Assembly: GCA_016185275.1 (NCBI GenBank)
Contig: JACPNX010000036.1
Coordinates: 1 to 64,000 of the forward strand
Length of the DNA stretch: 64,000 nucleotides
Reading direction: 5' to 3'
DNA from: Actinomycetota bacterium
Lineage (GTDB): Bacteria > Actinomycetota > Acidimicrobiia > Acidimicrobiales > Iamiaceae
The first letter of the stretch is position 1. The number at the start of each line of letters is the position of its first letter. Positions 42,492 through 54,770 of this stretch are shown in pieces. Below the pieces are notes generated by a model that did not search any database, had not been told where the DNA came from, and saw nothing but the letters and a program-made list of their open reading frames with translations. Made by a program: the position numbers and the translations under genes.

Positions 42492-44963
<2,472 letters not shown>

Positions 44964-50220: not shown

Positions 50221-50688
50221 TCAGTCGATCTCGACGACCTCCACGGTCAGCGCCGCTCCTGTCGGAGTCGCGTAGGTGACCGTGTCGCCGGGGGCGCGAC
50301 CCACCAGGGCCGCGCCCAGGGGCGACCCCGGCGAGATCACGTCGAGGTCGTCATGGCGCTCCTCGATGGACCCGATGAGGTACCGCTCGGTGTCGTCGTC
50401 ACCCTCGTAGCGGATCGTCACGACCGAGCCCGGCGCGACCGTTCCGCCGCCTGGCGCGTCGACGATCTCGGCGTTGTCGAGCAGCGCCGCCAGGTGGAGG
50501 ATGCGGCCCTCCATCTTGCCCTTCTCCTCCTTGGCCGCGTGGTAGTCACCGTTCTCCGACAGGTCGCCCAGCTCGCGGGCGGTCTCGATCTTGCGGGCGA
50601 TGTCGATGCGCCCGCGTGTCGTCAGGTCGTCGTGCTCGGCCTTGAGCCGCTCGTACGCGGCTCGGGAGAGCTGCACCTTCTCAGCCAT
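50221..50688 (-). CDS. greA: Transcription elongation factor GreA
   Basis: The 155-residue factor has the N-terminal coiled coil (LSRAAYERLKAEHDDLTTRG, ARELGDLSENGDYHAAKEEK with the acidic tip residues) and a C-terminal FKBP-like domain (GDDDTERYLIGSIEER, SPLGAALVGRAPGDTV). It rescues backtracked RNA polymerase. Stand-alone minus-strand gene. Confidence 0.95.
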   Translation of the reverse strand: MAEKVQLSRAAYERLKAEHDDLTTRGRIDIARKIETARELGDLSENGDYHAAKEEKGKMEGRILHLAALLDNAEIVDAPGGGTVAPGSVVTIRYEGDDDTERYLIGSIEERHDDLDVISPGSPLGAALVGRAPGDTVTYATPTGAALTVEVVEID

Positions 50689-50958
50689 CCGTCCAACCTA
50701 ACGGGCTCGGTTGCGGTCGCTCGGTCGTCCGGCCAGCGGGCGCGGGCTGGGTCCCGCAGTCCGGCCGCCACTTCGTCCGGCTGCCGCCGGCTTCCCGACA
50801 GATCCGGCCAACGTTCGGCCGGTTTCGTCGGGAAAGCCGCGTCGGGTGCGGTCGTGTTGGGTGCGGTCGTTCGGCCGGTTTCGTCGGGAAAGCTGCGTCG
50901 GGTGCGGTCGCTCGGTCGCTCGGCCGCCGGTCGCTCGCCCCGGCCGGCGCGCTGCGAG
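50689..50958. repeat. Intergenic region with 56-bp direct repeat
   Basis: The sequence TTCGGCCGGTTTCGTCGGGA followed by AAGC[CT]GCGTCGGGTGCGGTCG occurs at 50814 and 50870, a 56-bp period. Shorter CGGTCGCTCGG-like units surround it. No gene is supported in this stretch. It lies between greA and the leuB leader promoter. Confidence 0.6.
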
Positions 50959-50972
50959 TACGCTCGCCGGCG

Positions 50973-51011
50973 ATGACGCCGCACCTCGCACTCGTAGCCG
51001 TCATCGACTAG
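50973..51011 (+). CDS. Leu/Val/Ile leader peptide of the leuB operon
   Basis: The 12-residue frame [12 protein letters not shown] is leaderless (8 nt after TACGCT). Leu, Val and Ile make up five of 12 residues, matching the amino acids whose synthesis the downstream genes complete. It is a candidate sensor for attenuation. Confidence 0.6.
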
Positions 51012-51037
51012 CGCGCCCGGCACCCCCGAGCGCGCCT

Positions 51038-51072
51038 GGACCGTCCACTTCGGTGGGCGGTTCGTCGCTTTT
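51038..51072 (+). terminator. leuB attenuator terminator
   Basis: An 11-bp stem with a TTCG tetraloop (51038-51063) is followed by GTCGCTTTT ending at 51072. It ends 42 bp before leuB and can end transcription before the operon. Confidence 0.72.
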
Positions 51073-51114
51073 CCGCCCGGATCGAAGCCTGCCACCCACC
51101 TGCCCGAGGAACAC

Positions 51115-52158
51115 GTGACCCACCGCATCGCAGTCATCGGCGGCGACGGCATCGGCCCGGAGGTCGTCGCCCAGGCCCTGACGGTCGTGCGCGCCGCCGG
51201 CGTCGCGATCGACACGACCGACTTCGACCTCGGCGGTGCCCGCTACCTGCGCGACGGCACGGTCCTGCCCGCCGAGACGCTCGACGAGCTGCGCGGCTTC
51301 GACGCCATCCTCCTCGGTGCGGTGGGCACTCCCGAGGTGCCGCCGGGCGTCATCGAGCGCGGCCTGCTGCTCGAGATGCGCTTCGCGCTCGACCAGTACG
51401 TGAACCTGCGCCCGTTCGTGTGGCCCCTCCCCGGCACGGACGCAGGCACGGACGCCGGCCGCGGGAGCGCGGCGCGCGCGGTCGACATGGTCGTGGTGCG
51501 CGAGAACACCGAGGGCTCGTACGCCGGTGAGGGCGGGTTCCTGCGCAGGGGCACGCCGCACGAGATCGCCACGCAGGGCTCGGTGAACACCCGCATGGGC
51601 GTCGAGCGCTGCATCCGGTTCGCCTTCGAGCTCGCCCGCAGCCGGCCGCGCCGCCACGTCACCCTGGTGCACAAGACGAACGTGCTCACGTTCGCCGGCG
51701 ACCTGTGGCAGCGAGCCTTCGACGCCGTGGCCGCCGAGCACCCCGACGTGGGCACCGCCTACAACCACGTCGACGCCGCCTGCATCCACTTCGTGCAGGA
51801 CCCAGGCCGGTTCGACGTGGTCGTCACGGACAACCTCTTCGGCGACATCCTCACCGACCTCGGCGGAGCGGTGTCCGGCGGCATCGGCTTCGCCGCCTCG
51901 GGCAACCTCAACCCGGCGCGCACCGGCCCGTCGATGTTCGAACCGGTGCACGGGTCCGCGCCCGACATCGCGGGCACGGGCACGGCCAACCCGACCGCCG
52001 CCATCCTGAGCGCGGCGATGATGCTCGACTTCCTCGGCGAGGCCGACGCCGCCTCGCGCATCCGCGCCGCCTGCGAGAAGGTCGCGGCTTCGACGGACGC
52101 CTCCGCGCCCGGCCTCTCCACCGCCGAGGTCGGCGCGCGCGTCGCCGACCTCGTCTGA
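51115..52158 (+). CDS. leuB: 3-isopropylmalate dehydrogenase
   Basis: The 347-residue enzyme oxidatively decarboxylates 3-isopropylmalate. Motifs are [49 protein letters not shown] with the catalytic Lys, and [23 protein letters not shown] 51115 has GAGGA upstream. It opens the operon leuB-ilvE-cimA, which is preceded by the attenuator. Confidence 0.95.
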
Positions 52159-52189: not shown

Positions 52190-53107
52190 ATGCCGATCAC
52201 CCCAACCGAGAAGATCTGGATGAACGGCGAGCTGGTGCCGTGGGAGGACGCCCGCATCCACCTGCTCACCCACACGCTCCACTACGGCATGGGCGTGTTC
52301 GAGGGGATCAGGGCCTACGAGACCGAGGATGGCCCCGGCGTGTTCCGGCTCACCGACCACATGGTGCGCATGGAGAACTCGGCGAAGATCCTCGGGATGG
52401 AGCTGCCGTACACGGTGGCCGAGCTGGTCGAGGCGGTGAAGGTCACGGTCCGTTCCACCGGCCTGCCCTCGTGCTACATCCGCCCGATCGCCTACTACGG
52501 CTACGGCGAGATGGGGCTCAACACGCTGCCCTGCTCGATCGACGTGGCCATCGCCTGCTGGCCGTGGGGTGCCTACCTCGGCGACGACGCGCTCACCCGC
52601 GGCGTGCGCATGAAGATCTCCTCGTGGACCCGCCACGACCACAACACGATGCCGCCGGCGGCCAAGACCACCGGCAACTACGTGAACTCGTCGCTGGCCA
52701 AGGTGGAGGCCGTGAAGGCGGGCTACGACGAGGCGATCATCCTGAACCCGCAGGGGTTCGTGAGCGAGTGCACCGGCGAGAACATCTTCGTCGCCCGGCA
52801 CGGCAAGCTCATCACTCCGCCGCTGTCGTCGGGCGCGCTCGAGGGCATCACCCAGGACTCGGTCATGACCATCGCGCGCGACCTCGGCTTCGAGTGCGTG
52901 ATCGACACGCTGGCGCGGTCCGACCTCTACATCGCCGAGGAGATGTTCGTGTGCGGCACCGCAGCGGAGGTGTCGGCGGTCCGCTCGGTCGACGACCGGG
53001 AGCTGACTTCCCCGGGGCCGATGACCACGGCCATCGGCCAGGAGTACGGCCGGGCCGTGCGAGGCCTCGTCGACCGGTACAAGGACTGGGTCGAGCATGT
53101 CACCTGA
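52190..53107 (+). CDS. ilvE: Branched-chain amino acid aminotransferase
   Basis: The 305-residue PLP enzyme makes Leu, Val and Ile from their 2-oxoacids. It has MNGELVPWEDARIHLLTHTL, YGMGVFEGIRAYET, KTTGNYVNSSLAKVEA with the PLP Lys after it, and a class IV fold with ENIFVARHGKL. AAGGGAACC lies before the ATG. It overlaps cimA by 11 bp. Confidence 0.95.
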   Translation: MPITPTEKIWMNGELVPWEDARIHLLTHTLHYGMGVFEGIRAYETEDGPGVFRLTDHMVRMENSAKILGMELPYTVAELVEAVKVTVRSTGLPSCYIRPIAYYGYGEMGLNTLPCSIDVAIACWPWGAYLGDDALTRGVRMKISSWTRHDHNTMPPAAKTTGNYVNSSLAKVEAVKAGYDEAIILNPQGFVSECTGENIFVARHGKLITPPLSSGALEGITQDSVMTIARDLGFECVIDTLARSDLYIAEEMFVCGTAAEVSAVRSVDDRELTSPGPMTTAIGQEYGRAVRGLVDRYKDWVEHVT

Positions 53108-54770
53108 CCCTGCGGCGCCCGGCGCCGCCGCGGGCGAGGGCGGCCCGGCGCTGCCCGAGTGGGTCGACATCTTCGACACGACCCTGCGCGACGGTGCGCA
53201 GTTCGAGGGCATCTCGCTGTCGGTCGAGGACAAGCTGCGCGTGGCCGAGCGGCTCGACTGGCTCGGCGTCGCCTGGATCGAGGGCGGCTACCCGCAGGCG
53301 AACCCGAAGGACGCGGAGTTCTTCCGCCGCGCCGTCACCGAGCTGCGGCTCGACACCGCCACGCTCGTCGCCTTCGGGTCGACCCGCCGGCCGGCCGGCA
53401 AGGTCGACGTGGACCCGACACTGCGGGCGCTGGTCGAGTCGGGCACGTCGACGGCGTGCATCGTCGGCAAGTCGTGGGACTTCCACGTGACCGAAGCGCT
53501 CGGGACCACGCTCGACGAGGGCGTGGCCATGGTGGCCGACTCCGTGCGCTTCCTGCGGGCCGAGGGCATGCGCGTGTTCTTCGACGCCGAGCACCTCTTC
53601 GACGGCTACAAGCACAACCCCGAGTTCGCCCTGCGGGTGCTGGAGGCCGCGGCCGAGGCGGGCGCGGCGTGCCTCGTCCTGTGCGACACCAACGGCGGTT
53701 CGCTGCCGCACGAGGTCGAGCGCATCACCGGCGACGTCGTGCGCCACCTTGGCGCCGACGTCACCATCGGCATCCACGCGCAGAACGACACGGGCTGCGC
53801 GGTGGCAAACTCGGTGGCCGCCGTGGTGGCCGGCGCGCGCCAGCTCCAGGGGACGATCAACGGCTACGGCGAGCGCACCGGCAACGCCAACCTCATCACC
53901 TGCATCCCGAACCTCGAGCTGAAGCTCGGCGTGCGCTGCCTGCCCGAGGGTCGCCTGGAGCGGCTCACCGCGGTCAGCCGCCACGTCGCCGAGCTCGTGA
54001 ACCTGCCGCCGCACGCAGCCGATCCCTACGTCGGCTCGTCGGCGTTCGCGCACAAGGGTGGGCTGCACACGTCCGCGCTGGGCAAGGTCGGCGGCGCCTC
54101 CTACGAGCACGTCGACCCGGGGGTGGTGGGCAACCACACCCGGGTGCTGGTCAGCGATCTCGGCGGGCGGGCCGGCATGGCCATGAAGGCCAAGGAGCTC
54201 GGCGTCGACCTCGACGACCGGGCCGCGGCCGAGCTGTCCGAGCGCCTCAAGCAGCTCGAGTCGGAGGGCTACGTGTTCGAGGCGGCCGACGCCTCGCTCG
54301 AGCTGCTGATGCGTGCGGCCACCGGCTGGCGCCAGCCGTGGTTCCGCGTCGAGGGCTACCGGGTCACGACCTACCACCGGGCGGCCGTGCACCCGGGCGA
54401 CGCCGAGGCGTTCGCGGCGTCGGACTCGGCGCCCACCGTCGACACCGAAGCCACCGTGAAGGTCTGGGTGGACGACGAGCGCCACATCGCGGTGGGGGAG
54501 GGCAACGGTCCCGTGAACGCCCTCGACGCCGCGTTCCGGGACGTCCTCGGCCGTCGTTTCCCGCACCTCGCCGCGATCCATCTCGTCGACTACCGGGTCC
54601 GCATCCTCGACAACGTGGCCGACACCGACGCGGTCGTGCGGGTCATGATCGAGTCGACCGACGGCGAGGCCACGTGGACGACCGTGGGCGTGTCGACCAA
54701 CGTGATCGAGGCGTCGTGGCAGGCGCTGGTGGACTCCATCGTCTACGGCCTGCTCAAGGGCGAACGGTAG
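53097..54770 (+). CDS. cimA: Citramalate synthase (CimA)
   Basis: The 557-residue enzyme condenses pyruvate and acetyl-CoA to (R)-citramalate, feeding 2-oxobutyrate for isoleucine synthesis independently of threonine. It has a DRE-TIM barrel (DIFDTTLRDGAQFEG, CDTNGGSLPHEVERI, IGIHAQNDTGCAVAN with the metal HxN, NGYGERTGNANL) and a LeuA-like C-terminal dimerisation/regulatory domain. Length and the CITS-type sequence (DTTLRDGAQ) separate it from LeuA. The start overlaps ilvE, so the three genes are cotranslated. Confidence 0.92.
   Translation: MSPDPAAPGAAAGEGGPALPEWVDIFDTTLRDGAQFEGISLSVEDKLRVAERLDWLGVAWIEGGYPQANPKDAEFFRRAVTELRLDTATLVAFGSTRRPAGKVDVDPTLRALVESGTSTACIVGKSWDFHVTEALGTTLDEGVAMVADSVRFLRAEGMRVFFDAEHLFDGYKHNPEFALRVLEAAAEAGAACLVLCDTNGGSLPHEVERITGDVVRHLGADVTIGIHAQNDTGCAVANSVAAVVAGARQLQGTINGYGERTGNANLITCIPNLELKLGVRCLPEGRLERLTAVSRHVAELVNLPPHAADPYVGSSAFAHKGGLHTSALGKVGGASYEHVDPGVVGNHTRVLVSDLGGRAGMAMKAKELGVDLDDRAAAELSERLKQLESEGYVFEAADASLELLMRAATGWRQPWFRVEGYRVTTYHRAAVHPGDAEAFAASDSAPTVDTEATVKVWVDDERHIAVGEGNGPVNALDAAFRDVLGRRFPHLAAIHLVDYRVRILDNVADTDAVVRVMIESTDGEATWTTVGVSTNVIEASWQALVDSIVYGLLKGER

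Follow-up and report, generated by a model that had tools for sequence, protein, structure and literature searches.

What lies upstream of leuB?

In the window, by which we mean the whole stretch of 64,000 nucleotides that was analysed, leuB, ilvE and cimA follow one another on the forward strand, each above its own curated NCBIfam cut-off, and in front of leuB there is a compact element whose parts are collected in Table 1. The original prediction had read here a TACGCT hexamer, an 8-nt gap and a 12-codon peptide, all of which are indeed present, together with an 11-bp UUCG-capped stem and a tail, which we confirm. As DNA, this stem reads GGACCGTCCAC-TTCG-GTGGGCGGTTC, followed by GTCGCTTTTCC; the terminator scan counts a twelfth, terminal U.G pair in it and finds only this one terminator-like site in 50700-51200 (shuffled sequences give a mean of 0.1). 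The U-tract of the window is weak (UUCGUCGCUUUU), so that termination may be partial. What the earlier description did not contain is hairpin 1, seen on folding 51011-51035, whose first pair falls within the UAG stop codon, 8 nt from the start of the Ile codon at -2, and which is separated from the terminator by 1 nt. The control codons of this leader are GTA at -5, GTC at -3 and ATC at -2, and there are Leu codons (CTC) at -8 and -6.

Table 1 Elements of the leuB-ilvE-cimA locus and of the leuA leader in the same window
Feature	Position	Strand	Basis
greA	50221-50688	-	just under curated cut-off
Putative -10 element, TACGCT (ATG 8 nt 3' of it)	50959..50964	+	sequence reading
Leader ORF, 12 codons (ATG 50973, stop UAG 51009-51011)	50973..51011	+	sequence; codon statistics in 99 relatives
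Hairpin 1	51011..51035	+	folding; covariation; geometry
Predicted intrinsic terminator hairpin, UGGACCGUCCAC-UUCG-GUGGGCGGUUCG	51037..51064	+	terminator prediction; covariation
U-containing tail, UCGCUUUUCC	51065..51074	+	sequence; terminator scan
leuB, 3-isopropylmalate dehydrogenase (GTG start)	51115..52158	+	NF002898
ilvE, branched-chain transaminase	52190..53107	+	TIGR01122
cimA, citramalate synthase (overlapping ilvE)	53097..54770	+	TIGR00977
leuA sister leader	42501..42603	+	sequence; conserved in relatives
leuA leader ORF (GTG start)	42501-42536	+	
leuA leader hairpin	~42536-42561	+	
leuA leader terminator	42562-42593	+	
leuA leader U tail	to 42603	+	

A promoter scan of 50700-51200 found no consensus sigma-70 promoter, there being no clear -35 in the window, unlike in the relatives' loci, where TTGACG is often present, and no ribosome-binding site precedes the leader. 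From the spacing between the -10 and the start codon, we infer that the leader transcript of leuB-ilvE-cimA is probably leaderless. Readthrough of the UAG into leuB was considered and rejected, the leader frame being different from that of the leuB start. Curated Rfam models (T-box, ppGpp riboswitch and others) gave zero gathering-level matches at the site, the best sub-threshold match being isrB (19 bits, E 0.21). When the full architecture was searched for, that is, TANNNT, 5-9 nt, a leaderless ORF with at least four of its last six residues Leu, Ile or Val, a hairpin at the stop and a terminator, the 64-kb window returned one site, the element at 50959, and 60 simulated 64-kb windows with the same dinucleotide make-up returned 0. 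Between greA and the leader promoter there are also two near-identical copies of TTCGGCCGGTTTCGTCGGGAAAGC(C/T)GCGTCGGGTGCGGTCG, at ~50814-50910 and 56 bp apart.

Who else carries the element, and what has been conserved?

We compared the regions upstream of leuB in relatives, plus a set of named genomes (Ilumatobacteraceae, Acidimicrobiaceae, Microthrixaceae and others), whose families place the window in Acidimicrobiia, and one layout recurs in 37 loci, with a -10-like hexamer near TANACT, 6-10 nt, and then ATG or GTG. In relatives the leader usually runs for 10-17 codons to a UAG with which hairpin 1 begins, and a CCGUCC...GGGCGG terminator comes next. A covariance model built from 31 leaders (R1) matches 236 of 395 genomes, and 140 of the 184 genera of the class Acidimicrobiia, some of these matches being ilvB leaders. 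In a conservation sample of mostly MAG-based genomes, with alignments fitted to the covariance model, the gene following 100 aligned elements is leuB in 87 cases, cimA in 12 and ilvE in 1. Some relatives that do bear leuB lack the element upstream of it (L013, L018, L023), and weak phylum-wide matches that come without a leader ORF (L235-L246) resemble chance hairpins and were left out. Several MAG records titled Bifidobacterium breve (L032, L039, L043, L070) carry a leuB typical of Acidimicrobiia, 64-76% identical to that of the window, and are probably mislabelled; L042, titled Acidobacteria, may be mislabelled too.

Conservation in relatives had been put forward by the original prediction as a check on itself, and both peptide and stem turn out to be strongly conserved across relatives, with compensatory changes in the stem. 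The alignments indicate selection on the fold of both hairpin 1 and the terminator: of the 20 pairs in the two hairpins, 15 change on both sides, with 126 compensatory cells compared with 30 in shuffles, and in hairpin 1 such changes touch nine of the ten pairs. Slid registers lose pairing support in the same covariation test, and all eight of the top mutual-information column pairs fall within hairpin 1 and the terminator. The geometry is held as well, since the gap between the two hairpins is 0-4 nt in 94 of 100 leuB/cimA-type elements, and, on a fold-based count, 70 of 100 elements have hairpin 1 beginning 7-8 nt from the start of the last Ile codon; those outside that spacing are mostly explained by extra pairs in the leader codons. 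In Nonomuraea and Actinomadura this spacing persists although the stop codon is now part of the hairpin. Midway along the terminator stem, a U.G wobble (alignment A2, columns 60/92) is kept in 84 of 98 sequences, though C-G or U-A would be stronger.

Which amino acids might the leader report?

Codon statistics could be drawn from 99 of the 100 aligned elements, those whose stop is in register. Of these, 96 have Ile at codon -2 (ATT 75, ATC 21); Val and Ile fill most of the positions from -5 to -3, where Leu appears once in about 300 codons. Rare codons are enriched, GTA strongly so: it makes up 54 of the 118 Val codons at -5 to -3, and ATT 75 of the 96 Ile codons at -2, whereas in the leuB genes of these loci their shares are 2.8% of Val and 8.7% of Ile codons. 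In seven genes of the window, GTA accounts for 2 of 271 Val codons. Because Ile is fixed at -2, Val or Ile occupies -5 to -3, and Leu is nearly absent in relatives, the leader reads as Ile/Val in type rather than Leu/Val/Ile as had been proposed, and the two Leu codons of the window are private to it. A leader that senses all three branched-chain amino acids is what CTC at -8 and -6 of the window peptide would suggest, and we give this idea little credence, given that Leu at -6 is found in the window only, among 37 leaders compared, that relatives have that single Leu at -5 to -3, and that a ribosome halted on the window's Leu codons would be too far upstream to sit at hairpin 1. The leader stop is TAG in 92 of 99; the A and G of this codon are able to join the pairing of hairpin 1, though a role specific to RF1 is possible. 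This preference contrasts with the TGA of six of the seven window genes checked.

The company that the element keeps tells a similar story. Where leuB-ilvE-cimA form a single operon it sits 5' of leuB, and elsewhere usually 5' of cimA, as in Ilumatobacteraceae and a number of named Actinomycetes (Rugosimonospora, Actinomadura, Nonomuraea, Acrocarpospora, Phytohabitans, Modestobacter, a Geodermatophilaceae and Allobranchiibius), where it lies 31-100 nt before that gene; one genome (G028) has it at cimA and none at leuB. The cimA-adjacent leader peptides mostly end in IIIIR, IIIIP, TIIIS or LIIG, and that of Aeromicrobium in SIIIDRRAGH. In four cimA loci from Nonomuraea, Actinomadura and Acrocarpospora (L075, L076, L077, L104), the stop lies within hairpin 1 and the distance from Ile codon to hairpin is kept. 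Citramalate synthase catalyses the step that commits pyruvate to isoleucine, a route in which LeuB acts too, so control by isoleucine is what the pathway would lead one to expect. The original prediction had matched its codon set to an operon that ends all three pathways; to judge from its distribution, the element goes with cimA, and this fits Ile control better.

Is this the only leader of its kind?

Almost certainly not, and the prediction that leuA has the same design with another codon set is borne out by the leader at 42501, which is preceded by a clear -35 (TTGACG, 42464) and a -10 (GACCAT, 42488), has four Leu codons among its last six, shows the same hairpin-at-stop design and is kept in nearly all relatives with the same leuA. 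Leu stands at -4, -3 and -2 in all 22 leuA leaders that pass the scan. A candidate leader is also present at each of the relatives' 26 ilvB genes above the family cut-off; most of these leaders end in Leu-Val-Val-x-x, and 36 of 40 Val codons are GTA. The window's own genome has such an ilvB leader (L326, G000:C23; MSAGRSLVLRT, stop TGA), which would be its third attenuator of this design. The original prediction had counted two attenuators with different codon sets: the differing sets stand, and the number in this genome is better given as three putative ones. In the leuA, ilvB and leuB/cimA leaders alike, hairpin 1 starts within the stop codon or next to it; for leuA and ilvB, the median gap between hairpin 1 and the terminator is 0-2 nt. 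The uORF scan found no trpE leaders in 28 loci, a result that doubles as a negative control of the scan.

How might the leader work?

Codon conservation, rare-codon bias, the two hairpins and the target operon, each demonstrated computationally, point to a ribosome-mediated transcription attenuator that very probably reports the supply of Ile (and Val) to leuB-ilvE-cimA. Indeed, two marks of such an attenuator in the broad sense, control codons matched to the operon and a predicted intrinsic terminator between leader ORF and first gene, are both found. As for termination, ribosome stalling and the direction of the response, we infer the following course. The transcript would begin with the leader AUG or shortly 5' of it, and the 12 codons would be read by a 70S ribosome. 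With ample charged tRNA it would finish at the UAG and leave, hairpin 1 and the terminator would fold side by side, and polymerase would stop near 51070. One objection to this course is that a ribosome still on the UAG would interfere with hairpin 1, which calls for rapid release. With charged tRNA-Ile or tRNA-Val in short supply, the ribosome would halt on the last codons (the rare GTA, then Ile at -2) and polymerase would continue into leuB.

Might it be, instead, that translation of the leader is not sensed at all, that the hairpins are a constitutive tandem terminator or a stand-alone RNA, and that the Ile/Val peptide is incidental? The two hairpins are mutually compatible, which would suit such an arrangement, and a passage in PMC1262725 cites mutations of leader codons of ilvB in S. 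coelicolor as reported to be without effect. Against this, Ile at -2 is kept through synonymous codons, the rare codons are enriched, the spacing from -10 to start is maintained and the codon set varies with the operon, so that we find the idea scarcely likely at all.

A harder question is how a stalled ribosome would let polymerase through. The classical answer would be a 2:3 antiterminator, in which the ribosome covers the 5' arm of hairpin 1 and leaves its 3' arm free to pair with the 5' arm of the terminator, so that transcription continues. The commonest sequence does allow an arm pairing of GGUG.GCG with CGU.CACC, 81% of cells pair in register compared with 34-58% when slid, and C. glutamicum ilvBNC is reported to use an antiterminator (PMC11857589). 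This pairing, however, has no covariation above shuffles (81.3% paired, 80.9% shuffled); of 98 sequences, 63 break one of its pairs and 36 another, and where hairpin 1 changes the terminator arm does not follow. We also computed partition functions of the nascent RNA with a ribosome masking it as far as 13 nt beyond the first nucleotide of codon -2, and in the stalled state the occupancy of the terminator 5' arm is 0.36, as against 0.41 with shuffled upstream RNA, whereas the positive control, E. coli thrL, gives 1.00 when stalled and 0.06 at the stop. Folding of arms 2 and 3 against shuffles (z mostly between -1 and +1.8) and mutual information over all columns likewise lend an antiterminator no support, and the test is negative for the ilvB and leuA leaders too. 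Pair counts, folding and partition functions thus reveal no conserved antiterminator that excludes the terminator; given the lack of covariation, the low stalled occupancy and the positive thrL control, we do not file the element as antiterminator-type, and we regard the classical mechanism as rather unlikely here.

The step that we prefer, tentatively and at well short of even confidence, is steric antitermination by the stalled ribosome. The two hairpins would fold away the intervening RNA and bring the ribosome up against polymerase, hindering completion of the terminator, a proposal that comes from hairpin 1 starting 8 nt from the last control codon and ending 0-4 nt before the terminator. 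A broader and, in our judgement, doubtful generalization would be a class of attenuators without any antiterminator, in which the bulk of the ribosome blocks termination and a single chassis, with three or four codons swapped, would be shared by leuA (Leu), ilvB (Leu-Val-Val) and, with Ile/Val, by cimA or leuB-ilvE-cimA, in Acidimicrobiia as well as in other Actinomycetota.

How does this relate to known attenuators, and why does it matter?

Corynebacterium is an established case of ilvB attenuation by a leaderless leader peptide, and there is support for it in Mycobacterium (PMC11857589, PMC10272879, PMC13236596). For example, the leader of C. glutamicum ilvBNC is leaderless (PMC11857589), and changing LVVI to Ala in the M. 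tuberculosis ilvB1 uORF gives low, drug-independent reporter expression (PMC13236596); how the leuA and ilvB leaders of other actinobacteria act has been described as unclear (PMC1262725). What is new here, within the open-access papers searched, is the putative attenuator of cimA or leuB-ilvE-cimA and not ilvB leader attenuation: none of those papers links a leader-peptide attenuator to citramalate synthase, cimA or leuB, and Rfam has no model for one. Isoleucine synthesis by way of citramalate thereby gains a likely amino-acid sensor, and one leader design would seem to have been re-addressed to three branched-chain operons by a few codon changes. In addition, about 100 aligned natural variants make the mechanism of actinobacterial leaders directly testable, in a field where antiterminators seemed to be missing and some codon mutations were without effect.

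The closest relatives in design are the actinobacterial ilvB attenuators (C. glutamicum ilvBNC and the ilvB-II motif, M. tuberculosis ilvB1), which are leaderless or nearly so, as the window element probably is, and share with it a short leader ORF, branched-chain codons including GUA, a hairpin and a terminator (PMC11857589, PMC10272879, PMC13236596). They differ in that they precede ilvB and use Leu, Val and Ile, whereas the window element precedes leuB-ilvE-cimA or cimA and uses Ile and Val, with Ile fixed at -2; indeed, across genomes it lies before leuB, cimA or ilvE, and separate ilvB leaders exist. Published ilvB models also have the terminator compete with an antiterminator, and none is detectable in the window element. 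The E. coli attenuators of the thr, ilv and leu type resemble it in having control codons that match the product of the operon and a terminator between leader and first gene; unlike them, it has no detected exclusive antiterminator and no ribosome-binding site before the leader. Finally, the LEU element before actinobacterial leuA (Seliverstov 2005) has a run of Leu in its leader peptide, as does the leuA leader described here, but it is a pseudoknot whose base stem pairs the Leu codons with the leuA Shine-Dalgarno (PMC1262725), whereas the leuA leader here reads as a plain hairpin followed by a terminator.
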